Assembly (NCBI GenBank): GCA_016861045.1
Contig: BOKP01000001.1
Location: forward strand, 747,529-811,528
From: Actinomycetes bacterium
GTDB taxonomy: Bacteria > Actinomycetota > Thermoleophilia > Solirubrobacterales > 70-9
DNA: 64,000 nucleotides
Direction: 5' to 3'
The notes below the pieces were generated by a model, which ran no database searches, was not told where the DNA came from, and worked only from the letters and a program-made list of their open reading frames with translations. Positions 10,880 to 24,204 of this stretch are shown one piece after another (within the stretch, counting starts at the first letter, position 1; every line of letters begins with the position of its first letter). The position numbers and the translations under genes were made by a program.

Positions 10880-11119
10880 TTGCTCGTGCCGCCCGGTCGT
10901 CGCCGAGCGCCGCGGAACCCTAGCGGCTCGGCCGGGGAGGGCGGCTCGCCGCCGCGCATCGGTAGCGGGCCGCGGCTGGCCTCGGTAGCCGCCACCACGG
11001 CGGCCCGGGCCGCGATACGGCAGAATGGGCCGACAGCTACCGCTGCCGCGCGCCCCCTGCCGACTGCGGGCGGCCCCGATTCGCGCAGCGTTCCCAGATA
11101 GGAGTTGATCCAGTCCACG

Positions 11120-12928
11120 ATGACCGACGCCACCGCCGCGCCCGAGGCGCCCACCCGCAACCAGGCCCTGACGAGCTGGGTCGACGAGATCGCCAAGCTC
11201 GCGAAGCCGAAGGCGATCCACTGGTGTGACGGCTCCGCGGAGGAGTACGACCGGCTCTGCGGGCAGCTCGTCGAGGCGGGGACCTTCCGGCGGCTGTCCG
11301 ATGCCAAGCGCCCGAGCTCGTATCTGGCCTGGTCGGACCCCTCCGACGTCGCCCGCGTCGAGGACCGGACTTTCATCTGCTCCGAGACCGAGGCCGAGGC
11401 CGGCCCGAACAACAACTGGCGCGAGCCGGGGGAGATGAAGGAGGAGCTGCTCGAGCTCTTCGACGGCGCGATGGCGGGGCGGGTCATGTACGTCGTCCCG
11501 TTCTCGATGGGGCCGCTGGGCTCGGACAAGTCGCAGATCGGCGTCCAGGTGACCGATTCGCCCTACGTGGTCGTCTCGATGCGGATCATGACCCGGATGG
11601 GCAGGAAGGCGCTCGAGGTCCTGGGCGACGACGGTGAGTTCGTTCCCTGCGTGCACTCGGTCGGCGATCCCCTCGCCGCGGGCGAGGAGGACGGCGCCTG
11701 GCCGACGAACGCGGAGACGAAGTACATCGTCCACTTCCCGGCGAGCCGCGAGATCTGGTCCTACGGATCGGGCTACGGCGGCAACGCGCTGCTCGGCAAG
11801 AAGTGCCTGGCGTTGCGGATCGCCTCGGTGATGGCCCGGGACGGGGGCTGGATGGCCGAGCACATGCTGATCCTGAAGCTGACCTCGCCCGAGGGCGCCG
11901 TCAAGTACGTGACCGGGGCCTTCCCGTCGGCCTGCGGCAAGACCAACCTGGCGATGATGATCCCCTCGCTCGAGGGCTGGAAGGCCGAGACGATCGGCGA
12001 CGACATCGCCTGGATGCGCTTCGGCGAAGACGGCCGCCTCTACGCCATCAACCCCGAGGCCGGCTTCTTCGGCGTCGCTCCCGGCACCAGCGCCGACACC
12101 AACCCGAACGCGATGAAGGCGATCGAGCGCGACACGATCTTCACCAACTGCGCGCTGACCGACGAAGGCGACATCTGGTGGGAAGGGATGACGAAGCAGC
12201 CGCCCGCCCACCTGATCGACTGGCACGGGAAGGACTGGTCCCCCGGCGCCGAGGCGACCGCCGCGCATCCGAACGCGCGCTTCACGGTCTCCGCGAGGCA
12301 GGCGCCTTCGATGGCGCCGGAGTGGGAGGACCCGGAGGGCGTCCCGATCGACGCGTTCCTGTTCGGCGGCCGCCGCGCGAGCGTCGTCCCGCTGGTCCGC
12401 GAGGCGTTCGACTGGGAGCACGGCGTCTTCCTCGGGATGACGATGTCTTCGGAGATGACCGCGGCGGCGTTCGGCGCCGTCGGCCAGCTCCGCTTCGACC
12501 CGTTCGCGATGCTGCCGTTCTGCGGCTACGACCTCGCCGATCACTGCGCCCACTGGCTCGAGATCGCCCGAGCCGAGGGGGCGCAGCTGCCGCGGGTGTT
12601 CTACGTCAACTGGTTCCGCAAGGACGCCGACGGCGGGTTCATCTGGCCCGGCTTCGGCGAGAACAGCCGCGTCCTCGAGTGGGTCTTCCGCCGCTGCGAC
12701 GGCGAGGGGAAGACGGTCGAGACCCCGATCGGCCTCGTGCCGGCGATCGACGGGATCGACACCGACGGCCTCGAGGTCGGCGAGGAGGAGATGACCGAGC
12801 TCCTCACCGTCGACGAGGACGCCCTCCGCGACGAGCTGCCGCAGGTCGAGGAGCACCTGGCGAAGTACGAGCGGCTGCCGGCCGAGGTCCGCGCGCAGTT
12901 CGAGGCGCTGAAAGCCAAGCTCGGCTGA
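11120..12928 (+). CDS. pckG: Phosphoenolpyruvate carboxykinase (GTP)
   Basis: This 602-residue enzyme converts oxaloacetate to PEP with GTP, the first step of gluconeogenesis. Family motifs are present: [13 protein letters not shown]-type substrate loop ([14 protein letters not shown]), the metal-binding TKYIVHFP region, the P-loop [12 protein letters not shown] near 275, GDDIAWM and the guanine-binding FYVNWFRKD. Length and motifs are those of an intact GTP-type enzyme. The ATG at 11120 was preferred over the TTG at 11105, which directly abuts ATAGGAG; the ATG leaves 15 nt to that ribosome site. It is divergent from sucC and fits anaplerotic coupling to the ethylmalonyl-CoA genes. Confidence 0.95.
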
Positions 12929-13067: not shown

Positions 13068-14489
13068 CTAGAGGTACGGAAGCTCGACCGCGAAGCGGCC
13101 GCCGCGGGTGACGCCGCTGACCGTCGCCGTGTCGCCGGGCTCAGCCTGCTCGGCGATCCGGCAATAGTCGGCGCGGGTCCGGACCGGCCGGCCGTCGATC
13201 GCGGTGACGACCGCGACCTCGCTGCCGAAGCCGGCGTCGGCCGCCTCCGACCCCTCGACGGCGTTGTTGACGACGAGGCCCTTGCCGTTGGCGATGAAGT
13301 CGAAGCCGAGGAAGCCGATCGAGTCGCCCTGCTCGAGCGTCGGCGCCTGCTCCTTGAACAGGTCGACGCCGATCGCGAACCCCTGCCCCTGGGTCTCCAG
13401 CGTGGTCAGCGAGTTGATCCCGACCAGGTTGCCGGCGTCGTCGACCAGCGGGCCGCCGGAGTTGCCGTGGTTGATCGCGGCGTCCGTCTGGACCACGTTC
13501 GGGTAGCGGCGGGTGTCGGGATGCGCCCCGGCCTCGGAGCGGCTCTGCACCGACTCCTCGACGACCGAGACCGTGCCGGTGTTCGACTGCAGCGGCGTCG
13601 AGGCGAAGTTGGTGAACTCGTTGCTCGGATAGCCGACCACGTTGACCTGCTCGCCCTGGGCGAGGTCGGACTGGGAGCCGAGCGGTAGCGTCTCGAGCCC
13701 GCTCGCGTCATCGACCTCGAGCATCGCGATGTCGTAGCAGGGCGAGTTCGCATACAGGGTGGCGGGGCGCGGCTCGTCGTCGACGAGGACACGGTAGGTG
13801 GTCAGCCCGGGCGTCTCCTGGTCGCCGACGACGTGCGCGTTGGTCACGACGAGCCCCCGATCGGCGTCGTAGACCCAGCCGGTCCCGGCGCCGTTGCTCC
13901 GGTCGTCGACCCTGGTCAGGACCCGTACCGTCGACGGCCTCGCCCTGGCGATGATCTCGCTCGCGGTCGGCGGCTCCTCGGGGTCGGAGGAGAAGACGCC
14001 CGTCGCCGCGGCGACGATCGCGCCGGCCGCGACGAGGACCGCGATCACGGCGAGGATCGTCGCGCGGCGGACCGATCGCTCCAGCCGCAGCCGCTGGATC
14101 ACGCTGGAGTCGCCCGAGACCATGCGCCGGATCCGCGACCGCTCGTCGGGCTTGGCCGCCGCCCCGCCGGCTCCGGCCGCCGCGCCGCCGGCTGCGCGAT
14201 CGGGCTCGATCCGCAGGGTGCTGGAGCCGATCCGCAGCGAGTCGCCCGGGGCGAGCGTCACCGGCCGCTCGATCCGGCGTCCGTTGACGAACGTCCCGTT
14301 GCTGGAGCCGAGGTCGCCGACCTCGACATCGCCGTCGACCACCTGCAGGTAGGCGTGGCGGCGCGAGACCTTGCCGTCATCGAGGGTCAGGTTGCAGGCC
14401 GGGTCGCGGCCGATGACGAAGCGCTCCTCGGCCCCGACCTCGATCCGGCTGTCGGCGTTGGGCCCGGTGAGGAAGATCAGCTCGGCCAT
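13068..14489 (-). CDS. FHA domain-transmembrane-trypsin-like protease-PDZ protein (HtrA-like)
   Basis: This 473-residue protein has an FHA domain at ~20-95 with canonical phosphothreonine residues (GRDP, VSRRHA, GSSNGT), an Ala/Gly linker, a single TM at ~143-163 and an extracytoplasmic trypsin-like domain. The catalytic triad is visible as His219 (VVTNAHVVG), Asp253 (CYDIAMLEV) and Ser344 (NHGNSGGPLV). A C-terminal PDZ-like domain spans ~385-470. The protease therefore sits outside while the FHA domain reads phosphorylation inside. It lies 13 bp downstream of the Hsp70-like gene in the same operon and close to a kinase gene, so FHA binding to kinase-phosphorylated threonines probably controls it. 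Confidence 0.9.
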   Translation of the reverse strand: MAELIFLTGPNADSRIEVGAEERFVIGRDPACNLTLDDGKVSRRHAYLQVVDGDVEVGDLGSSNGTFVNGRRIERPVTLAPGDSLRIGSSTLRIEPDRAAGGAAAGAGGAAAKPDERSRIRRMVSGDSSVIQRLRLERSVRRATILAVIAVLVAAGAIVAAATGVFSSDPEEPPTASEIIARARPSTVRVLTRVDDRSNGAGTGWVYDADRGLVVTNAHVVGDQETPGLTTYRVLVDDEPRPATLYANSPCYDIAMLEVDDASGLETLPLGSQSDLAQGEQVNVVGYPSNEFTNFASTPLQSNTGTVSVVEESVQSRSEAGAHPDTRRYPNVVQTDAAINHGNSGGPLVDDAGNLVGINSLTTLETQGQGFAIGVDLFKEQAPTLEQGDSIGFLGFDFIANGKGLVVNNAVEGSEAADAGFGSEVAVVTAIDGRPVRTRADYCRIAEQAEPGDTATVSGVTRGGRFAVELPYL

Positions 14490-14502
14490 CGGGCTCCCGC
14501 CC

Positions 14503-16497
14503 TCAGGCCAGCTGTCGCCAGGCGTTGATCGAGCGCGAGACCGGGACGTCGGTGGCCTCGGAGGCCATGAAGGCGATCTTGAGCTGGCTGTCGTCGGTCC
14601 AGATCACCCAGTTCTGGCCGTCCTCGTCGGTGTAGCAGGCGAGGTTGCCGATCGTCTTCTGCGGATCGTTCCGGTACCAGGTGCCCTTCGTTCCCCAGTC
14701 GTTGGCGCTGCAGCCGCCGGGGTCGAGCGTTGCCGCGTAGCGCTTGAAGGCCGCGTTGAGGTCGCGGCGGCTCTCGAAGGACTCGATGAAGACGACGAAG
14801 CCGGGCGGGCCGTCGCACTGGATCCCGGCCTGGGCGCCGACCTCGAAGTCCTGCTCCTTCTCGGGCACGCAGCTGTCGCGGAACTTCTCCGGGATGAACG
14901 TCGCCAGCTCCTCCTCGGGCGTCGTCTCGTCGGTCGTGGTCGTCGTCGTGGTCGGGTCGCCGCCGCCACCGCCGCCGAGCAGCACCACCGCGGCGAGGAT
15001 CGCGACGACCGCCGCGCCGCCGAGGATCGCCGCGATGGTCCGCCCGCGCCCGCCGCCGGAGCCGCCCGCACGCCGGGCCGCCGCCGCGGGTTGGCGGGCG
15101 GGTTCCGGCCCGGCGTCGTCGGCCCCCCGCCCGGGATCGCGCGGGACGCCACCTCCTCCGGCTCCGGCGCCGGGCCCGGGCGTGGGCGGGACCGGATCCC
15201 CTGGCCCGGGCGTCGCGGCGACCATCGGCCGCCCACCCGGCTCCGGCGGCGCCGGGACGTCGATCTCGGTCGCGTTCGGGTCGGCGGCCACGGCGTCCGT
15301 CGGATCCGCGGCGGCGGCCCCGGCCGCGGCCGGGGCGGCAGCCCCCGGAAGCGGCGGGATCGCCGCCCCCTCCGGCGACAGCGGGCGCTCGTCGACCGAG
15401 GAGTCGCGCGCCGCGGCCCGCTCGAGCCGCGCCGCGCCGAGCGCGATCACCGACTTCGGGTCGTCGAGGTGCTCGGGCAGGACCCCGAGGCGCTCCTGGA
15501 TCAGACGGCCGACGAGCGGGATCCGGCTCGAGCCCCCGGCGAGGTAGATCGCGGCCAGATCCGACGTCTGCAGGCCGGCGGCGAGGATCGTCCGCTCGAG
15601 CTCGGCGACGGTGCCGCGCAGGGTCGGCGCGATCAGGCGCTCGAAGTCGGTGACGTTCGCCTCGAGCTCCCGATCGACCGGCGGCGGCAGGTAGAACTCG
15701 TACTGGGAGCTGCGCGACAGCCCCTCCTTGGCGCGACGCGCGTGGCGGAGGAGCTCTCGGTTCGCCTGCGCCCAGGCCCGGTCCCGGCTCGCGTCCGCCT
15801 CCCGGAGATGCTCCCAGACGTCGCCGGGAAGCTGGTCGCCGAGGTGGCGGTAGAGGAGGTCGTCGAAGTCCTCGCCGCCGAGCTCCTCGTCGCCGCCGGT
15901 CCTGCCGACGACCGTGAACGAGCTCCCGTGCCGCTTCAGGACCGCGGTGTCGAGCGTGCCGCCGCCGAGGTCGTAGACGGCGACGTGCTCGCCCTCGGCG
16001 AGGCGCTCGCTGGCGAAGTGGACGGCGGCCGCGACCGGTTCGGGGACGAAGGTCGGCTCGCCGAGGCCGGCCATCGAGGCGGCCTGCCCGAGCTTCGCGA
16101 GGCGCGACTTCTGCCAGCGCGCCGGGTGGGTCAGGCGGATCTCGTCCGGGGGCTCGCCGCCGCTCAGCGCCATCGCCTCGTTGTGGACCTCGCGCAGGAT
16201 CGCGGCGATGATCTCGACCGGCCGCAGCTGCTTGTCGCCGAGTTGGATGAACTCCTCGCCGAGCCGGCTCTTCGGCGCGCGCTCCAGACACCACGGCGCG
16301 AGGGTCGACAGCTCCTCGGCCTCGACGCCGAGCACGAGCCGGCCGGTCCCCGACGCCCCCGTCCCCTCGCGCCAGAAGGCTAGCGACGGCATCCGCGGCC
16401 CGCCCTGGAGCTGGATCGTCTCGACCCGGTCGCCGACCCTCCGTGCCGCCGCGGTCGAGGTCGTGCCGACGTCGATGGCGAGGATCCAGCCGCTCAA
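14503..16497 (-). CDS. Hsp70/DnaK-like ATPase with transmembrane segment and extracytoplasmic cysteine domain
   Basis: This 664-residue protein starts at a TTG preceded by AAGGGAG with 7-nt spacing. Residues ~1-365 form an actin/Hsp70 ATPase with phosphate-1 LAIDVGTTST, phosphate-2 VAVYDLGGGTLDTAV and adenosine motif IYLAGGSSRIPLVG. The usual Hsp70 substrate-binding domain is absent. Instead there is a Pro/Ala/Gly linker, one TM (~487-509), a run of threonines and a ~130-residue C-terminal domain with four cysteines (SCVP, IQCD, GGCS, LACY). That domain resembles the extracytoplasmic domain found on many actinobacterial Ser/Thr kinases (family knowledge). ATPase inside and sensor outside suggest a transducer. 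It is in operon with FHA-HtrA and divergent from the FHA-ABC gene. Confidence 0.85.
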   Translation of the reverse strand: MSGWILAIDVGTTSTAAARRVGDRVETIQLQGGPRMPSLAFWREGTGASGTGRLVLGVEAEELSTLAPWCLERAPKSRLGEEFIQLGDKQLRPVEIIAAILREVHNEAMALSGGEPPDEIRLTHPARWQKSRLAKLGQAASMAGLGEPTFVPEPVAAAVHFASERLAEGEHVAVYDLGGGTLDTAVLKRHGSSFTVVGRTGGDEELGGEDFDDLLYRHLGDQLPGDVWEHLREADASRDRAWAQANRELLRHARRAKEGLSRSSQYEFYLPPPVDRELEANVTDFERLIAPTLRGTVAELERTILAAGLQTSDLAAIYLAGGSSRIPLVGRLIQERLGVLPEHLDDPKSVIALGAARLERAAARDSSVDERPLSPEGAAIPPLPGAAAPAAAGAAAADPTDAVAADPNATEIDVPAPPEPGGRPMVAATPGPGDPVPPTPGPGAGAGGGGVPRDPGRGADDAGPEPARQPAAAARRAGGSGGGRGRTIAAILGGAAVVAILAAVVLLGGGGGGDPTTTTTTTDETTPEEELATFIPEKFRDSCVPEKEQDFEVGAQAGIQCDGPPGFVVFIESFESRRDLNAAFKRYAATLDPGGCSANDWGTKGTWYRNDPQKTIGNLACYTDEDGQNWVIWTDDSQLKIAFMASEATDVPVSRSINAWRQLA

Positions 16498-16614
16498 ACT
16501 GCCCACTCCCTTCGTACAGCGCGCGCGGGTGAGGCGCTTCTCGTGCCGGGGCAGGGGACGAAACCTGGTTCCCCCCGGATCATGCCCGGCGACCGTACCA
16601 CGAGATGGCGGGGA

Positions 16615-16620
16615 TATGCT
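16615..16620 (+). promoter_or_regulatory. -10 box (TATGCT) of the FHA-ABC/kinase operon
   Basis: TATGCT ends 7 nt before the ATG at 16628 and itself overlaps an upstream in-frame ATG (16616). This favours the second ATG as a leaderless start. Confidence 0.45.
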
Positions 16621-16627
16621 GCAAATC

Positions 16628-19315
16628 ATGGGGTGGTCGGTGAAGGTGAGGTCCGGTGATGCCCGCCGCCTGATCACCGTCGAAGGCGAGCTGACGATCG
16701 GCCGCGGCGTCGACGGCGCCGGCGGCCTGCCCGAGGACCGCAAGGTCTCCCGCCGCCACGCCCGGTTCCTCCTCGCGGCCGACGGCGCGCTCCTGGTCGA
16801 GGATCTGGGCTCGGCGAACGGGACCGAGGTGAACGGGGTCGCGCTCGAGCCGGGCGCGCCGCGCGAGCTCGACACCGGGGACGTGATCGCCGCCGGCAGC
16901 ACGGTGCTCGAGGTCGGGGAGCGGATCGATGCCGGCCCGGGCCCGTCGCGGCCGCTGTCCCCGCCGGCGCCCGGGCGCGCGTCCGAGCCCGACCCGGCCC
17001 GGCTCCCGACCCCGGTCGAGCAGCTGGGCTCGCCGTCCTCGGTGCGCCCGCCCTCGGCGCCGGCGCCCGGGCCGATCGCGGGCGAGGTGCTCCACGCGGG
17101 TGGCCGCGCGGCCATCGGCGCCGGGGGCGTCACGATCGGCGCCGATCCCGGCTGCGAGGTGGTTGTCGAGGGTCGGACCGCGGCCGGGCGCCACGCGACG
17201 ATTCGCGAGCGTGACGGCCGCCACTACCTCGCCGACCTCGGCGCCGGCACGGGCACGCGCCTCAACGGGGAGCTCCTGCGGGGCGAGTCGCGATGGCTCA
17301 ACAGCGGCGATTCGATCGAGGTCGGCGGCGAGGCGCTTCGCTACGTCGCCGGCGAGCGCACCCGCCTCGGCGCGGCCGCCGCGCCGGCCGCCGCCGCGGA
17401 GACCATCCACCTCGGCTCCGGGGCGCTGACGATCGGCCGCGACCCGGCGAACGAGGTCGTCCTCGACGACCCGAACGTCTCCCGGTTCCACGCCGAGGTG
17501 CGGCCGGTCGACGGCGCGTCGGAAGTCCGCGACCTCGGCTCGCGCAACGGCACCAGGGTCGACGGCGGGTTCGTCGGCGGGAGCGTCGTGATCAGGCCGG
17601 GTGCGGAGATCGGGATCGGCCCGTTCCGGCTCGTCTTCGACGGCAGCCGCTTCGTCCGTCGCGACGACCGGGGAGCGATGCGGCTGCGCGGCGAGGAGGT
17701 GTCGATGCAGGTTCGCGACAAGCTGATCCTCAACCGGGCCTCGATCGCGGTCGAGCCCGGCGAGTTCGTCGTCGTCATCGGCGAGAGCGGGTCCGGCAAG
17801 ACCACGCTCGTGAAGGCCCTGGCCGGCGTCACCGACCCGACCGGGGGGCGCGTGCTGGTCAGCGGCGAGCCGGTCCAGAGCCGCCTCACCGACATCGGCT
17901 ACGTGCCGCAGGACGAGATCGTCCACCGCGGCCTGACCGTGGTCGAGGGACTGCGCTACGCCGCCTGGCTGCGGCTGCCCGGGGACTCGACCCGCGAGGA
18001 CATCGACGATGCCGTCGATCGCGTCCTCGAGGAGCTCGACCTCGCCCCCCATGCCGACACCCGGATCGGCTCGCTCTCGGGCGGGCAGCGAAAGCGCGTC
18101 GGGGTCGGGACCGAGCTCGTCAACCGGCCGAGCCTGCTGTTCCTCGACGAGCCCACCACCGGCCTCGATCCCGGCCTCGAGACGCGGCTGATGGAGATCT
18201 TCCGCGAGCTCGCCGAGCCGGGGCGGCGCAGCGTCACCGTGGTCACGCACGCGACCAAGAACCTCGACCTCCCGGACAAGGTCTGCGTGATGGGCCAGGG
18301 GGGAGAGCTCTGCTTCTTCGGCCCGCCCGAGGAGGCCAAGGAGTTCTTCGGGACGGCGAGCTTCGACGGCATCTACTCGGCGCTCGAGGGGCGGCCGGCG
18401 CCCCAGTGGCGGCGCGAGTTCGAGGCTGAGCGCGGCGAGGCCCTGCCGACGCTCGAGGAGCCCGCCCCGGCGCCGTCGGCCCCGCGCCCGCGGCGCCCGC
18501 GCCCCGACGTCGGTCGCCAGTCGACGCTCCTCGCCCGCCGCTACCTGACCCTGATGGTGCGCGACCGTCGCAACCTGGCGATCCTGCTCGGCCAGGTGCC
18601 CCTGATCGCGCTCGGGATCGCGCTGTTGTTCAAGTCCGATGTGCTCCGCGGCTCGGTTGACACCAACAACGCGGCACTCCTGCTGTTCCTCGTCGTCACC
18701 TCGATGATCTGGCTCGGGGCGATCGACGCGGCCCGCGAGATCATCAAGGAGCGGCCGCTGATGGAGCGCGAGCGCGCGATCGGGGTGCGCCTCAGCGCCT
18801 ACCTCGGATCGAAGTCCATCGTCCTGTTCGGGCTCGTGGTCGTCCAGGCGGCGCTGCTCGGCGCGGTCACGTTCGGGCTCCGCCCGCTGTACGAGTCGCC
18901 GCCGACGTACCTCGCCCTGTTCGCGGTGCTGGCCGTGACCGGGTTCGTCTCGGTCGCGATGGGCCTCTGGATCTCGTCGCTGGTCTCGAGCGAGGATCAG
19001 GCCGCCAGCTTCATCCCGCTGGCGCTGATCCCGCAACTCCTGTTCGGGGGGGCGATCGTCGCCGTCGAGGAGATGAGCGGGGCGATGCAGCAGCTCTCGA
19101 AGCTCGTCTACTCGCGCTGGGCCTTCGCCGACATCGGGGCCGCCATCGACCTCGGCGATCGGATCCGCCAGACGACTCACTCGATCCCGAGCCGCTACAC
19201 GCCCGACTTCTTCGAGCTCCCGCTCGGGCGCGGGGTCGCGATCCTGGCGGCCTTCCTGCTCGCCTTCCTCGCGCTCACCTATGTGACCCTCGAGATCAAC
19301 CGCCGGGAGGGGTAG
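16628..19315 (+). CDS. Triple-FHA ABC transporter (ABCG/Rv1747-like exporter)
   Basis: This 895-residue fused exporter has three FHA domains at ~20-90, ~150-225 and ~262-340. An ABC ATPase follows at ~365-590 (Walker A GESGSGKTTL, signature LSGGQRKR, Walker B LLFLDEPTTGLDP), then an ABC-2 membrane domain with about six TMs. FHA1 (SRRHA, GSANGT) and FHA3 (SRFHA, GSRNGT) keep the phosphothreonine residues; FHA2 does not (AAGRHA, GAGTGT). The architecture resembles mycobacterial Rv1747, whose FHA domains are controlled by kinase PknF and which exports cell-envelope components; the substrate here is unknown. The kinase gene starts 16 bp downstream. Some long upstream in-frame codons exist but lack homology. 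Confidence 0.9.
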   Translation: MGWSVKVRSGDARRLITVEGELTIGRGVDGAGGLPEDRKVSRRHARFLLAADGALLVEDLGSANGTEVNGVALEPGAPRELDTGDVIAAGSTVLEVGERIDAGPGPSRPLSPPAPGRASEPDPARLPTPVEQLGSPSSVRPPSAPAPGPIAGEVLHAGGRAAIGAGGVTIGADPGCEVVVEGRTAAGRHATIRERDGRHYLADLGAGTGTRLNGELLRGESRWLNSGDSIEVGGEALRYVAGERTRLGAAAAPAAAAETIHLGSGALTIGRDPANEVVLDDPNVSRFHAEVRPVDGASEVRDLGSRNGTRVDGGFVGGSVVIRPGAEIGIGPFRLVFDGSRFVRRDDRGAMRLRGEEVSMQVRDKLILNRASIAVEPGEFVVVIGESGSGKTTLVKALAGVTDPTGGRVLVSGEPVQSRLTDIGYVPQDEIVHRGLTVVEGLRYAAWLRLPGDSTREDIDDAVDRVLEELDLAPHADTRIGSLSGGQRKRVGVGTELVNRPSLLFLDEPTTGLDPGLETRLMEIFRELAEPGRRSVTVVTHATKNLDLPDKVCVMGQGGELCFFGPPEEAKEFFGTASFDGIYSALEGRPAPQWRREFEAERGEALPTLEEPAPAPSAPRPRRPRPDVGRQSTLLARRYLTLMVRDRRNLAILLGQVPLIALGIALLFKSDVLRGSVDTNNAALLLFLVVTSMIWLGAIDAAREIIKERPLMERERAIGVRLSAYLGSKSIVLFGLVVVQAALLGAVTFGLRPLYESPPTYLALFAVLAVTGFVSVAMGLWISSLVSSEDQAASFIPLALIPQLLFGGAIVAVEEMSGAMQQLSKLVYSRWAFADIGAAIDLGDRIRQTTHSIPSRYTPDFFELPLGRGVAILAAFLLAFLALTYVTLEINRREG

Positions 19316-19331
19316 GCCGAAGGGGCCGCTG

Positions 19332-22300
19332 ATGGGCCGGCGCGGGATCGGAATCGGCAGCACGATCGCCGGGCGCAGGCTCGAGGCGGAGATCGGCCGC
19401 GGCGGCATGGGCGTCGTCTATCGGGCCGAGAACGACCGCCTCGACCGGATGGAGGCGGTCAAGGTGATCGCCGACGACCTCGCCCGCGACCGCGGCTTTC
19501 GCGAGCGGTTCCTGCGCGAGGCGATGATCGCGGTCGCGGTCGAGCACCCCCACGTGATCCCCGTCTACGACGCCGACGAGGCGGCGGGCGGGCACCTGTT
19601 CATCGCGATGCGCTACGTCAGCGAGGGCTGGAACCTGGCCAGCCTGATCGGCCAGCGCGGGCGGCTCGAGCCGCGCCTGGCGGCCCAGATCGTCTCCGAC
19701 ATCGCCTCCGCGATCGACGCCGCCCACGCCCGCGACCTCGTTCATCGCGACGTCAAGCCGACCAACATCCTCATCGTCGACCAGCGCTCCCACCACTCCT
19801 ACCTGACCGACTTCGGCCTCTCCAAGCGCGTCTCCTCGAAGACGATGCTGAGCGGCGCCGGCGCCGTGATCGGGACCGTCGACTACATGTCGCCGGAGCA
19901 GGCGCAGGGGCGCGAGGTCGATCATCGCACCGACGTCTACGCGCTCGGGGTGACGCTGTTCGAGGCGCTGAGCGGGCGGGTGCCGTATCTGAACGAGACC
20001 AACGAGGGGCGGCTGCTGGCCAAGGTCCAGGAGCCGGCGCCGATGGTCACCCAGGTCGCCGCCGGGATCCCGCCCGCGTTCGACGCGGTCCTCGCCCGCG
20101 CCCTCGCCCGCGACCCCGAGGAGCGCTATGCCTCCGCCGGGGAGCTCGGGCGCGCCGCTCAGGAGGCGGCCGGACGGCCGTCGTCGGTCACCAGCAGCCG
20201 TGAGATCGGGGTCGGCTCGGTGATCGCCGACTGCCTGATCGAGGAGGTGGCGGGAGAGGGCGGCATGGCGGTCGTCTACCGGGCGACGCAGCAGAGCCTC
20301 GGGCGCGAGGTCGCGGTCAAGGTGATGGCGCCCGGGCTCGCCGACCGGCCCGAGTTCCGGACCCGCTTCGAGCGCGAGTGGAAGATCGCTGCGGCGCTCG
20401 AGCACCCGGGCGTCGTCCCGATCCTCTGGGCCGGAGAGCATGACGGCCGCCTCTTCATCGTCATGCGGTTCGTCGCCGGGGGGACCCTTCGGGAGCGGCT
20501 CGCCGAGCGCGGCCGGCTCGAGCCCGAGCTCGCGGTCGAGGTCCTCGAGCAGCTCGCCGACGCCCTCGACGCCGCCCACTCGCGCGGGCTCGTCCACCGC
20601 GACATCAAGCCCGGCAACGTGCTCGTCGACGAGTCGAGCGGCGCCGTCTACCTGACCGACTTCGGGCTCGCCAAGGAGCTCGGCGACGACACCACCGACG
20701 TCGGCGAGCAGGTGATGGGCACCGCCCGCTACATGCCGCCGGAGCGCCACGGCGGTGGGCCCGTCGACGAGATCCGCGGCGACGTCTACTCGCTCGGCTG
20801 CCTGCTCTGGGACATGCTGGCCGGCAGCGAGCGGCCCCGCCTGGAGACGATCGCCGGCGTGGCGCCGGAGCTCGCCGCGGTCGTCACGCGGGCGATGAGC
20901 GAGGATCCGCGGCAGCGCTTCGGCTCGGCCGGGACGATGGCGGCCGCCGCCCGCGCCGCGCTCGCGTCGGCGCCGCCACCGACCGAGGAGGGGGCGCCTC
21001 TCCGGCCCGCCGCGCCCCGGCCCGCGCCGCCGCCGCGCCGGCGCCCGTTCGAGCCGGCGCCCTTGTCGAGCGGGCTCTCCCGGCGGGTGGTCGATCTCTG
21101 CGACTCGGTGCTCGCGATGGGGGTCGCCGAGGGTCCCGCCCTCGCCGACCTCGCCGCGGTGCGCGAGCGTCTCGTCGCGCCGCTTCTGCTCGCGATCTCG
21201 GGACGGCCGGGCAGTGGGCGCTCGACGCTGGTCAGCGCGCTGGTCGGGCGCCGGCTCGCCGGCGGCGCCGGCTACGGCGCCCTCGCGGCCCCGCTCGAGA
21301 TCGCCTACGGGGATCGCGAGCGGGTCGTCGCCGTGACGGCTTCCGGCGAGCGGATCGAGCAGGGGTTGACGCCGGAGGGCCTTCTGCCCGATTGCCTGCT
21401 CGAGCCCGATGGGGGGCTCGGACGGATCGCCGTCGAGCTCCCGGTCGAGTCGCTTCGGACCGTCTCCCTCGCGGTCGGCCGCGCGGACGACGCCGATGCG
21501 GTCCTCCTGATCGTCGCCGCCGACGAGGCCACGGATGCGGCCACGGTCGCGGACGAGTGCGTCGCGGAGCCGGTGCGGCGGTCGCTCTCGGCGGTCAACT
21601 GCGCGGCGGCGCTGACGAAGCCCGACCTCGTCGCCGGCGAGCTCGGTGAGGCGCTCGCGGCCGTCCGCTCGTCGCTCGGCCACGCGATCGCGACCGTCGT
21701 CCCCCTCGACGGCCTGATCGCGGCCCTCGCCGCCACCGGAGCACCGGTCGGGGAGGACGTGGCCCTGATCGGCGAGCTCGCCGCGGCGGGGACCGATCGC
21801 GACGCGCTGCTGGCCACCGCCGGGGCGTTCACCGCCGGCGCCACCGCGATCGGCGCCGAGGAGCGCGCGGCGCTGCTCGACCGCTACGGGCTCTCGGGCC
21901 TGCGCTGGGCGCTCGAGCTCGCCGACTCCGGCGGGCTCACCGGGGTCGGACTGCGGCGGCGGCTGCGCGAGGTCTCGGGGCTCCCGGAGCTCGAGGAGGC
22001 GATCGACGGATTCCACCAGCGCAGCGACGCGCTGAAGGCGGACCGGGCGCTCGACCGGCTCGAGGAGCTCGCCTACGAGCACCCCGAGCTGGCGCTCCTC
22101 GGCGATCACGTCGAGGCGCTGCGGCTCGCGCCGGAGATGCACCTGGTCGGCCTGATCCGCGCCTATCAACGGATCGTCATCGACGGGGTCGAGGTCCCGG
22201 ACGAGCTCCTCGGCGACCTCGAGCGCCTGATCACGGGCCGCACCCGGGCGCAGCGGTTCGGGATCGACGAGGACCGGACGAGCGACGTCCGCGCCGCCGC

Positions 22301-22433
22301 CCTCGCCGGCTTCCGCGCCTGGAAGATGCTCGAGAACGCCGGCAACGCCGGCCCCGCGGCCCGCCGCGTCGCCCGCCTCGTCGCCCGCTCCTACGAGCAG
22401 TACGCGCGTGACGCCGAGGCGGCGACGCAGTGA
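19332..22433 (+). CDS. Tandem Ser/Thr protein kinase fused to a P-loop GTPase-like domain
   Basis: This 1033-residue soluble protein contains two complete Hanks-type kinases. Kinase 1 (~13-275) has GRGGMGVVY, Lys44 (EAVKV), HRDVKPTN (Asp140) and DFG (Asp160). Kinase 2 (~297-545) has GEGGMAVVY, REVAVKV, HRDIKPGN and DFG. A Pro/Arg linker leads to a P-loop NTPase with G1-like SGRPGSGRSTL near 620 and TKPDL as a possible G4, followed by a helical C-terminus, which suggests a dynamin- or Era-like GTPase. No TM is present. It is co-transcribed with the triple-FHA exporter and is the obvious kinase for all FHA proteins of the locus. I know no well-studied protein with this domain order. Confidence 0.88.
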   Translation: MGRRGIGIGSTIAGRRLEAEIGRGGMGVVYRAENDRLDRMEAVKVIADDLARDRGFRERFLREAMIAVAVEHPHVIPVYDADEAAGGHLFIAMRYVSEGWNLASLIGQRGRLEPRLAAQIVSDIASAIDAAHARDLVHRDVKPTNILIVDQRSHHSYLTDFGLSKRVSSKTMLSGAGAVIGTVDYMSPEQAQGREVDHRTDVYALGVTLFEALSGRVPYLNETNEGRLLAKVQEPAPMVTQVAAGIPPAFDAVLARALARDPEERYASAGELGRAAQEAAGRPSSVTSSREIGVGSVIADCLIEEVAGEGGMAVVYRATQQSLGREVAVKVMAPGLADRPEFRTRFEREWKIAAALEHPGVVPILWAGEHDGRLFIVMRFVAGGTLRERLAERGRLEPELAVEVLEQLADALDAAHSRGLVHRDIKPGNVLVDESSGAVYLTDFGLAKELGDDTTDVGEQVMGTARYMPPERHGGGPVDEIRGDVYSLGCLLWDMLAGSERPRLETIAGVAPELAAVVTRAMSEDPRQRFGSAGTMAAAARAALASAPPPTEEGAPLRPAAPRPAPPPRRRPFEPAPLSSGLSRRVVDLCDSVLAMGVAEGPALADLAAVRERLVAPLLLAISGRPGSGRSTLVSALVGRRLAGGAGYGALAAPLEIAYGDRERVVAVTASGERIEQGLTPEGLLPDCLLEPDGGLGRIAVELPVESLRTVSLAVGRADDADAVLLIVAADEATDAATVADECVAEPVRRSLSAVNCAAALTKPDLVAGELGEALAAVRSSLGHAIATVVPLDGLIAALAATGAPVGEDVALIGELAAAGTDRDALLATAGAFTAGATAIGAEERAALLDRYGLSGLRWALELADSGGLTGVGLRRRLREVSGLPELEEAIDGFHQRSDALKADRALDRLEELAYEHPELALLGDHVEALRLAPEMHLVGLIRAYQRIVIDGVEVPDELLGDLERLITGRTRAQRFGIDEDRTSDVRAAALAGFRAWKMLENAGNAGPAARRVARLVARSYEQYARDAEAATQ

Positions 22434-22533: not shown

Positions 22534-24204
22534 TCAGGCTCCGAGCAGAACCGGGGCGACCTGCTTCTTGCGCGACATGACGCCGGGGAGCTCGAAGAGG
22601 CCGTACTCGTCCGGATCCCCGAACGCGCGGCGGAGCGGCGCCTCGTCGCCGGAGGCGATCAGCGTCGTCCCCCGAGCGAGGATGTCGGTGACCATCAGCG
22701 CCGCGAGCGAGTGGCCGTTTCGCTCGCGGACCTCGGCGATCGCTTCGGTGAGCTCCTCGCGCCGCTCGAGCACACCGCCGCCGACGGTCTCGATCTGGGC
22801 GATCGAGACCGTCTCGCCGGAGGCGAGCGTGTACTCCTTGGCGTCGCGGGTGACGATCTCGCGCGCCGTGAGCTCGGTCACATCGGAGGTCGAGGCGAAC
22901 ATCTCGCGCCCGAGATCGATCGCGTTGACGTCGACCAGGTCCTCGAGCTCGTTGATCGCGTCGCGGTCGCGGTCGGTCGTCGTCGGCGAGTTGAGCAGGA
23001 CCGTGTCGGAGAGGATCGCGCAGAGCAGCATGATCGCCGTCGAGTCCATCGGGTCGACGCCGTTGGCGGCGTAACGCTCGGCGATCAGCGTCGCCGTCGA
23101 TCCGACCGGGTCGAAGGTGGCGGTCACCGGGATCCGCGTCTCGATCGAGCCGATGTGGTGGTGGTCGAGGATCTCGACGATCTCGGCCTGCTCGACGCCC
23201 GGCACGCTCTGCGCCGCCTCGGCGTGGTCGACGAGGATCACCCGCCGCGGCCTCGGGGCGACCAGGTCGCTGCGGGTGAGCAGCCCGACCGGCCGCTTGC
23301 GCCCGTCGACGGCGACGGCGGCGCGGTAGTGAACGTCCTTGACCTGCTCGGAGATCTCGACGATCAGGTCGTCCGGGTCGACCGTCAGCGGCTCGCGGTC
23401 GGCCAGGCCCTCGCAGGGCGAGGCCAGGGTCACCATCCGGCAGCTCACGTAGGAGTCGAGCGGGCTGACCACGATCCGGCAGCGGCGCTCGCGGGCGAGC
23501 TCGCGGATCTCGGGCTCGGGAGCGATGCCGTTGCTCGCGATCAGCACGGCCGCGCCGAGCTCGATCGACTGCCGCTGGGCGTCGAGGCGGTTGCCGACGA
23601 CGACGACGTCGCCGTCGGAGATCCGGCTCCTGCTCCGCGCGGCGTCGATCGAGTGGACCCAGACGCGGCCGGCGACGGTCCCGTCCTCGCCCTCGACCAG
23701 CTCGCCGTCGAGGACCGCGACGATCGCCGAGATGGTGGTCGGCGCGTCGGCGAGGCTGTGCGTCCTCCCGGTCTCGCGGATGTAGCGGTGGGCGAGGGCG
23801 CGCTCGGTCATCACCCCGACGAGCTCCCCCTCGTCGCCGACGATCGGGACGATGTCGAGGTCGTCGGCTGCCATCGTCCGCCCGACCTCGCGCAGCGGCT
23901 CGCCGTGCCCGGCGACCGGGAAGTCCTCCCGCATCACGTCCCGCACCCTGAGGAAGACGTGTCCCATCCGCTCGGGGAGCCGGGCTCCGCTGCGCTCCAG
24001 CGCCCAGGCGGTCTGCGCGTTGACCCTGCCGAGCCGGACCGGCACGTACTCGCTGTCGGGATCGAGCTGCTGCTTGAGCTCGGCGTAGGCGATCGCCGAG
24101 GCGATCGAGTCGGTGTCGGGGTTGCGGTGGCCGGTGACGTAGATCCGCCGCCGCCGCGGGTCGATCGGCTCCTCGCTGCTCACCGCCGGCGAATCATCGA
24201 GCAT
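22534..24204 (-). CDS. ppaC: Manganese-dependent inorganic pyrophosphatase (family II) with CBS/DRTGG insert
   Basis: This 556-residue DHH-superfamily enzyme hydrolyses pyrophosphate. Catalytic and metal motifs are GHRNPDTDSI near 25, VDHAEAAQ near 330, EILDHHHIG near 348 and GSTATLIAERY, followed by the DHHA2 domain. A ~200-residue insert carries CBS motifs (RDVMREDFPV and VKDVHYRAAVAV) flanking a DRTGG-like region, as in adenine-nucleotide-regulated CBS-pyrophosphatases, so AMP/ADP inhibition and ATP or ApnA activation are likely. It lies convergent with the kinase gene, and a strong hairpin separates it from the gene upstream. Confidence 0.9.
   Translation of the reverse strand: MLDDSPAVSSEEPIDPRRRRIYVTGHRNPDTDSIASAIAYAELKQQLDPDSEYVPVRLGRVNAQTAWALERSGARLPERMGHVFLRVRDVMREDFPVAGHGEPLREVGRTMAADDLDIVPIVGDEGELVGVMTERALAHRYIRETGRTHSLADAPTTISAIVAVLDGELVEGEDGTVAGRVWVHSIDAARSRSRISDGDVVVVGNRLDAQRQSIELGAAVLIASNGIAPEPEIRELARERRCRIVVSPLDSYVSCRMVTLASPCEGLADREPLTVDPDDLIVEISEQVKDVHYRAAVAVDGRKRPVGLLTRSDLVAPRPRRVILVDHAEAAQSVPGVEQAEIVEILDHHHIGSIETRIPVTATFDPVGSTATLIAERYAANGVDPMDSTAIMLLCAILSDTVLLNSPTTTDRDRDAINELEDLVDVNAIDLGREMFASTSDVTELTAREIVTRDAKEYTLASGETVSIAQIETVGGGVLERREELTEAIAEVRERNGHSLAALMVTDILARGTTLIASGDEAPLRRAFGDPDEYGLFELPGVMSRKKQVAPVLLGA

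Follow-up and report, generated by a model that had tools for sequence, protein, structure and literature searches.

A four-gene actinobacterial locus that appears to merge an Rv1747/PknF-type exporter module with the ini dynamin system

Results

Layout of the locus

Four genes, here called A to D, make up the locus. They lie within the 64-kb stretch of DNA that was analysed as a whole (the window), in the interior of a 1.15-Mb contig from a genome of 2.7 Mb. An earlier note on this DNA had placed four genes at 13068-22433; these coordinates were confirmed, and the Pfam domains agree with the architectures that it gave for A, B and C. The genes and features discussed below are, in positions of the window:

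11105-12928, convergent to the locus: flanking gene, PEP carboxykinase (named by eye)
13068-14489, minus strand: gene A, FHA-TM-HtrA-PDZ (Pfam, hydropathy, triad motifs, orthologues in the class)
14503-16506, minus strand: gene B, Hsp70 ATPase domain-TM-extracytoplasmic domain (Pfam, tree, neighbours of the family)
14503-14910, minus strand: C-terminal extracytoplasmic domain of B, putative sensor (matches in the class, conserved Cys, low-confidence model)
16507-16615, no strand: divergent intergenic region, putative promoter (sequence)
16616-19315, plus strand: gene C, three FHA domains, ABC_tran and ABC2_membrane, Rv1747-like ABCG half-exporter (Pfam)
19332-22433, plus strand: gene D, kinase-kinase-IniC-like predicted pseudo-GTPase (Pfam, motifs, hhalign, model)
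about 21042-22430, plus strand: IniC-like predicted pseudo-GTPase domain of D (hhalign, lost motifs, model, fold match)
22534-24204, convergent to the locus: flanking gene, DHH-type pyrophosphatase-like (named by eye)

Each of the four reading frames is open and has the coding bias of high-GC DNA (GC3 0.94-0.96). On the minus strand B is followed by A after a gap of 13 bp, and on the plus strand the kinase gene D starts 16 bp after C. The divergence of the two pairs, described previously, holds; the distance of 130 bp given with it depends on the choice of starts, and B and C are 109 bp apart with those chosen in our analysis. No sigma-70-like site was found in this interval (16507-16615) by a consensus scan. 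Both flanking genes are convergent to the locus, which leaves its edges clean.

The FHA-HtrA protein

Gene A encodes an FHA domain (residues 25-88; Pfam match 9e-21), a TM segment (143-161), a trypsin-like HtrA domain (202-358; Trypsin_2, 1e-31) and a PDZ-like domain (392-464), the PDZ_2 match of 5.8e-5 being under Pfam's curated cut-off. The protease triad motifs NAH, YDIA and GNSGG are all intact. The TM segment is preceded by an Arg/Lys-rich flank and followed by none, so that hydropathy predicts the FHA domain inside the cell and the protease outside. A sample of about 200 class genomes contains full-length orthologues, 42-54% identical, with the same FHA-TM-HtrA layout. The FHA-HtrA protein is recurrent in the class and mostly encoded as a single gene; a kinase gene adjoins it in 3 of 13 class loci, two of these three belonging to the same genus, which lends some support to the earlier interpretation. 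One same-genus HtrA orthologue (L131:11411-11835), truncated at a contig end, is 69% identical and has no FHA domain. A fusion of two FHA domains with trypsin has been noted earlier in Bacteroides (PMC2605481).

The grouping of FHA, kinase and HtrA proteins, also proposed in the earlier note, found a counterpart in a related cluster of G209, a genome of the window's class (L061:5344-12881), which encodes FHA-TM-HtrA, FHA-TM-beta-propeller, FHA-TM-sensor, FHA-TM and kinase-TM-sensor proteins. They look like one TM scaffold on which outer and inner domains have been swapped.

The exporter and its neighbouring kinase

In mycobacteria, the phosphorylation-controlled exporter and iniBAC, an isoniazid-induced dynamin operon, are separate modules. 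The kinase PknF is membrane-bound, and FHA domains bind phosphothreonine. In Mycobacterium tuberculosis, PknF phosphorylates Rv1747 and modulates it positively, while deletion of either Rv1747 or PknF up-regulates iniBAC (PMC3908365). Phosphorylation of the FHA regions of Rv1747 by PknF leads to the formation of condensates (PMC9312465).

In the single chain of C, the FHA domains precede an ABCG-type ATPase and a membrane domain (Pfam). Class-wide searches for B, C and D were done with fragments of each, and the membrane domain of C had matches in 14 of 199 class genomes; C was not found in two other genomes of the window's genus. A kinase is the direct neighbour of the FHA-ABC gene in 8 of 11 class loci and lies within two genes of it in a ninth. 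The FHA-ABC regions hold 12 kinase genes among 424 genes, mostly those direct neighbours. Judging from domain order and neighbourhood, C and its kinase form a pair of the Rv1747/PknF type, a parallel already drawn in the earlier note and strengthened by the recurrence of the pairing.

A double kinase with an IniC-like tail

Gene D encodes two Pkinase domains (Pfam), with the VK, HRD and DFG motifs intact in both, plus a P-loop region. Hydropathy, on which this point relies, reveals no convincing TM segment. As a single sequence the tail of D was missed by Pfam, NCBIfam and PADLOC, and it was identified through profiles: the C-terminal 463 residues align with IniC of ini loci, in a match over its full length (hhalign 99.7%, E 2.7e-25, 30% identity over 433 columns). 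The IniC profile matches the tail at 2e-37 in a search of that one sequence, and the IniA profile gives no match. An AlphaFold2 model built with 44 homologues (pLDDT 85, pTM 0.82) has IniA (PDB 6J72) as its best fold match in the PDB, at 1.3e-6 and with a low global TM-score of 0.36; further matches are the bacterial dynamin pair 5OWV and mitofusin, with global TM-scores of about 0.3-0.4. On profile and predicted fold, the tail is best seen as a degenerate dynamin-like domain of the IniC type.

Its GTPase motifs are lost: the P-loop Lys is replaced by Arg and the G2 Thr by Gly, and DTPG and the following switch region are deleted. P-loop Lys, G2 Thr and DTPG are kept in 44 of 44 homologues. 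The loss makes it most likely that the domain is a pseudo-GTPase kept for binding, inactive-looking and presumably no longer able to hydrolyse GTP. Of the tandem kinase-GTPase described earlier, the two kinases stand, and the supposed GTPase turns out to resemble IniC with the Walker A Lys and DTPG gone. In the 198 other genomes of the class, no orthologue of the tail was found beyond one weak match.

The Hsp70-TM family of ini loci

The HSP70 match of B (7.5e-36) covers the ATPase domain only, ending at profile position 369 of 599. Beyond it follow a Pro/Ala linker, a single TM helix (residues 491-509) and a C-terminal extracytoplasmic domain. An Arg/Lys-rich flank before the TM helix, and none after it, places the Hsp70 part inside and the putative sensor outside according to hydropathy.

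The outer domain of B measures about 135 aa and the recurring domain about 110 aa, with conserved Cys residues. Counting the window's own genome, 7 of 199 class genomes encode it; elsewhere (L061, L062, L063-L067) its carriers are FHA proteins, kinases and proteins without assignment. By sequence it fits no Pfam or PDB family. A single-sequence model (pLDDT 68) gave a weak match to a PsbP/DcrB-like fold and, also weakly, to the sensor domain of PknH.

B alone, used in a degenerate-pattern scan of 84,980 species, gave no relative, probably because it is too divergent. When the ATPase domain was compared across the phylum, relatives closer than DnaK appeared in a few genomes of other classes. 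These Hsp70 genes adjoin two GTPases, of 606-641 aa and 477-511 aa, and the profile of the larger one corresponds to M. smegmatis IniA (PDB 6J72; 7e-165) along its length. Near ini-type Hsp70 genes there is also a weak match to the N-terminal part of IniB, and an IniR-like regulator was found in 40 of 87 sequences scanned.

Scanning the same 84,980 species for the Hsp70-TM subfamily yielded 456 relatives, and the neighbour counts use the best 80 of these 456. Among these 80 loci, the flank contains IniA in 63, IniC in 62, both in 60 and at least one of them in 65; for loci of 16 kb or more, IniA and/or IniC occur in 39 of 47. The same 80 loci include an FHA gene in 0, a kinase in 2 and HtrA in 1. 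About 30 regions chosen for unrelated purposes served as controls: IniA was found in none of them, and IniC in L146 alone, which had itself been picked for IniC. B's usual partner is accordingly the dynamin pair, and the grouping of the Hsp70-like gene with kinase and FHA proteins, as put forward in the earlier note, was not borne out. Among the best 80 of 456 loci, one has a protease neighbour: in an Ilumatobacter MAG, the Hsp70-TM gene has a short HtrA-like gene (L221:2875-3531) immediately upstream of it.

Hosts of the best 80 of 456 include Ilumatobacter and other Acidimicrobiia, Actinoplanes, Asanoa, Salinispora, Saccharothrix, Amycolatopsis and Nitriliruptoraceae. Hsp70-TM genes beside iniA/iniC (L160-L239, L154-L158) are spread across Actinomycetota, with one record titled Chloroflexota. 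A TM helix follows the ATPase domain in 17 of 18 sampled members, as it does in B. In a FastTree phylogeny of the ATPase domains, B joins the Hsp70-TM proteins of ini loci, apart from DnaK (support 0.963, on a long B branch), and by this phylogeny and its architecture B belongs with the membrane-anchored Hsp70 family of iniA/iniC loci. The literature that we found on such a partner amounts to a single remark, on a dnaK-like gene, a putative member of the family, at the ini locus of M. smegmatis (PMC5760070). A B-like protein was not recognised in 49 genomes of the window's family, in which the matches look like DnaK. Three same-family genomes encode second DnaK-like proteins of 627-872 aa (L010, L011, L017, L039-L041), which fall on the DnaK side of the tree.

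Within the 64-kb window, no IniA was found by profile, and IniB-like and IniR-like queries had no match. The earlier note had taken homologues that are never neighbours elsewhere as the sign of a chance neighbourhood; by this test, pairs of the homologues do adjoin elsewhere, and the full set of four was found in no second genome. Since the complete set was seen in the genome of the window alone, the locus is either rare or a recent assembly.

Discussion

Whether the four proteins form a hybrid envelope-stress unit, in which D would be docked to B via its pseudo-IniC tail and would control the FHA-bearing exporter C and protease A, is in our judgement about evenly balanced. Independent evidence connects B with D, given that the IniC-type domain of D has relatives adjoining B's family, and the fusion of kinases to a seemingly dead dynamin-like domain suggests a physical link between the two modules. 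Starting from domain content, homologies, hydropathy topology, GTPase motif loss and conserved gene pairings, we infer docking, sensing, phosphorylation targets and control of protease and exporter as follows. D would be a soluble double kinase, whose IniC-derived domain, presumably without GTP hydrolysis, probably serves as a docking scaffold. B, with an outer domain that might sense the state of the envelope, could recruit D to the membrane through this tail. There, the exporter C, B or both may become substrates of the kinases of D, which may also phosphorylate themselves. FHA domains, three in C and one in A, would read the phosphothreonines. This could cluster C and activate export of an envelope component, as PknF does for Rv1747, and might draw the outward-facing HtrA protease A into the same complex.

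Several observations count against such a unit. Ini-type Hsp70 loci elsewhere have no FHA genes and hardly any kinases (0/80 and 2/80 in the best 80 of 456); no second genome has all four genes, and the same-genus genomes lack C; IniA, IniB and IniR were not recognised in the window, and the closest same-genus HtrA is without FHA.

An unlikely alternative is that D phosphorylates threonines in the linker of B, which then recruits the FHA exporter and the FHA protease, the ini connection being incidental. Phosphothreonine binding by FHA domains is known, the genes are adjacent, and the linker of B contains several Thr residues, one in a T-x-x-D context. However, a few Thr in a long linker are weak evidence, and we judged these motifs uninformative about phosphorylation. 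Moreover, the relatives of B go with IniA and IniC, without FHA and nearly without kinases (best 80 of 456), and the IniC-like domain of D accounts better for its pairing with B. It is also improbable that the locus consists of two independent units around a common divergent promoter region, C and D as an Rv1747/PknF-like pair of exporter and kinase, A and B for membrane quality control, without physical contact between the two. Most genomes do keep C-kinase pairs apart from solo FHA-HtrA genes, and all four genes are together in no other one; against this stand the IniC-type domain of D, whose relatives adjoin B's family, and the presence of FHA domains in both A and C.

A further reading takes D as a membrane-remodelling dynamin partner free of GTP hydrolysis, for instance with an IniA encoded elsewhere, so that the kinases would regulate fission or vesicle release and not the exporter. 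IniA has membrane-fission activity and IniC is its suspected regulator (PMC6715688), and the predicted fold of the D tail appears dynamin-like; yet there is no IniA-like gene in the 64-kb window and, by hydropathy, no convincing TM in D, and we consider this reading very unlikely. A role in defence against phages or in conflict, with kinase and protease as the effectors, is hardly credible and was rejected, as the PADLOC defence-kinase models that match the kinase domains of D are generic Ser/Thr kinases, the nearest relatives of C are exporters, the genes bordering the locus look housekeeping and not like a defence island, and no defence-island setting was seen among the loci examined.

If the hybrid unit with D docked to B is real, it touches on a question in M. 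tuberculosis. The switch-on of iniBAC after loss of Rv1747 or PknF has so far been explained only indirectly, via accumulating wall intermediates. That an IniC-like domain is fused to kinases next to an exporter of the Rv1747 type points to direct contact between the proteins. The locus could even be a "Rosetta stone" for the PknF/Rv1747 and iniBAC pathways as one machine, the pseudo-IniC domain holding the two kinases at a transmembrane Hsp70 sensor, with an equivalent link in trans that would join PknF, Rv1747, IniA/IniC and the dnaK-like protein of mycobacteria and further actinobacteria; this we hold to be rather unlikely. With the Hsp70-TM protein as a regular partner of IniA and IniC across Actinomycetota, an envelope-stress system of relevance to drugs gains a probable component. 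The ini connection, which the earlier note had missed, is the more informative part of the locus.

Comparison with known systems

A resembles the membrane-anchored HtrA/DegP proteases in its trypsin-like domain with intact triad motifs, PDZ-like domain and TM anchor, and differs from them by an additional N-terminal cytoplasmic FHA domain. B shares the Hsp70 ATPase domain with the DnaK/Hsp70 chaperones, but has a TM helix and an outer domain in place of their substrate-binding domain; without the latter, and on a branch apart from DnaK, it was rejected as a chaperone of this kind. The cluster of G209 (L061) is similar to the locus in its FHA-TM-HtrA protein and in kinase and FHA proteins that carry B's outer domain, whereas it has no Hsp70-TM gene, FHA-ABC or IniC-like domain in that stretch.

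The closest parallels are found in the two mycobacterial systems. Like the Rv1747-PknF operon of M. tuberculosis, the locus has FHA domains fused to an ABCG-type half-exporter and an adjacent Ser/Thr kinase gene. Rv1747 has two FHA domains, C has three; PknF is a membrane kinase, whereas D is apparently soluble, with the kinase doubled and fused to an IniC-like predicted pseudo-GTPase; and the locus adds an FHA-HtrA protease and an Hsp70-TM gene. With the iniBAC locus (IniR-IniB-IniA-IniC) it shares B, of the Hsp70-TM family found beside iniA/iniC, and the IniC-like tail of D, although here this part is without GTPase motifs and fused to two kinases. The locus is best described as a new hybrid merging two known envelope-stress modules, the exporter/kinase pair and the ini dynamin system.
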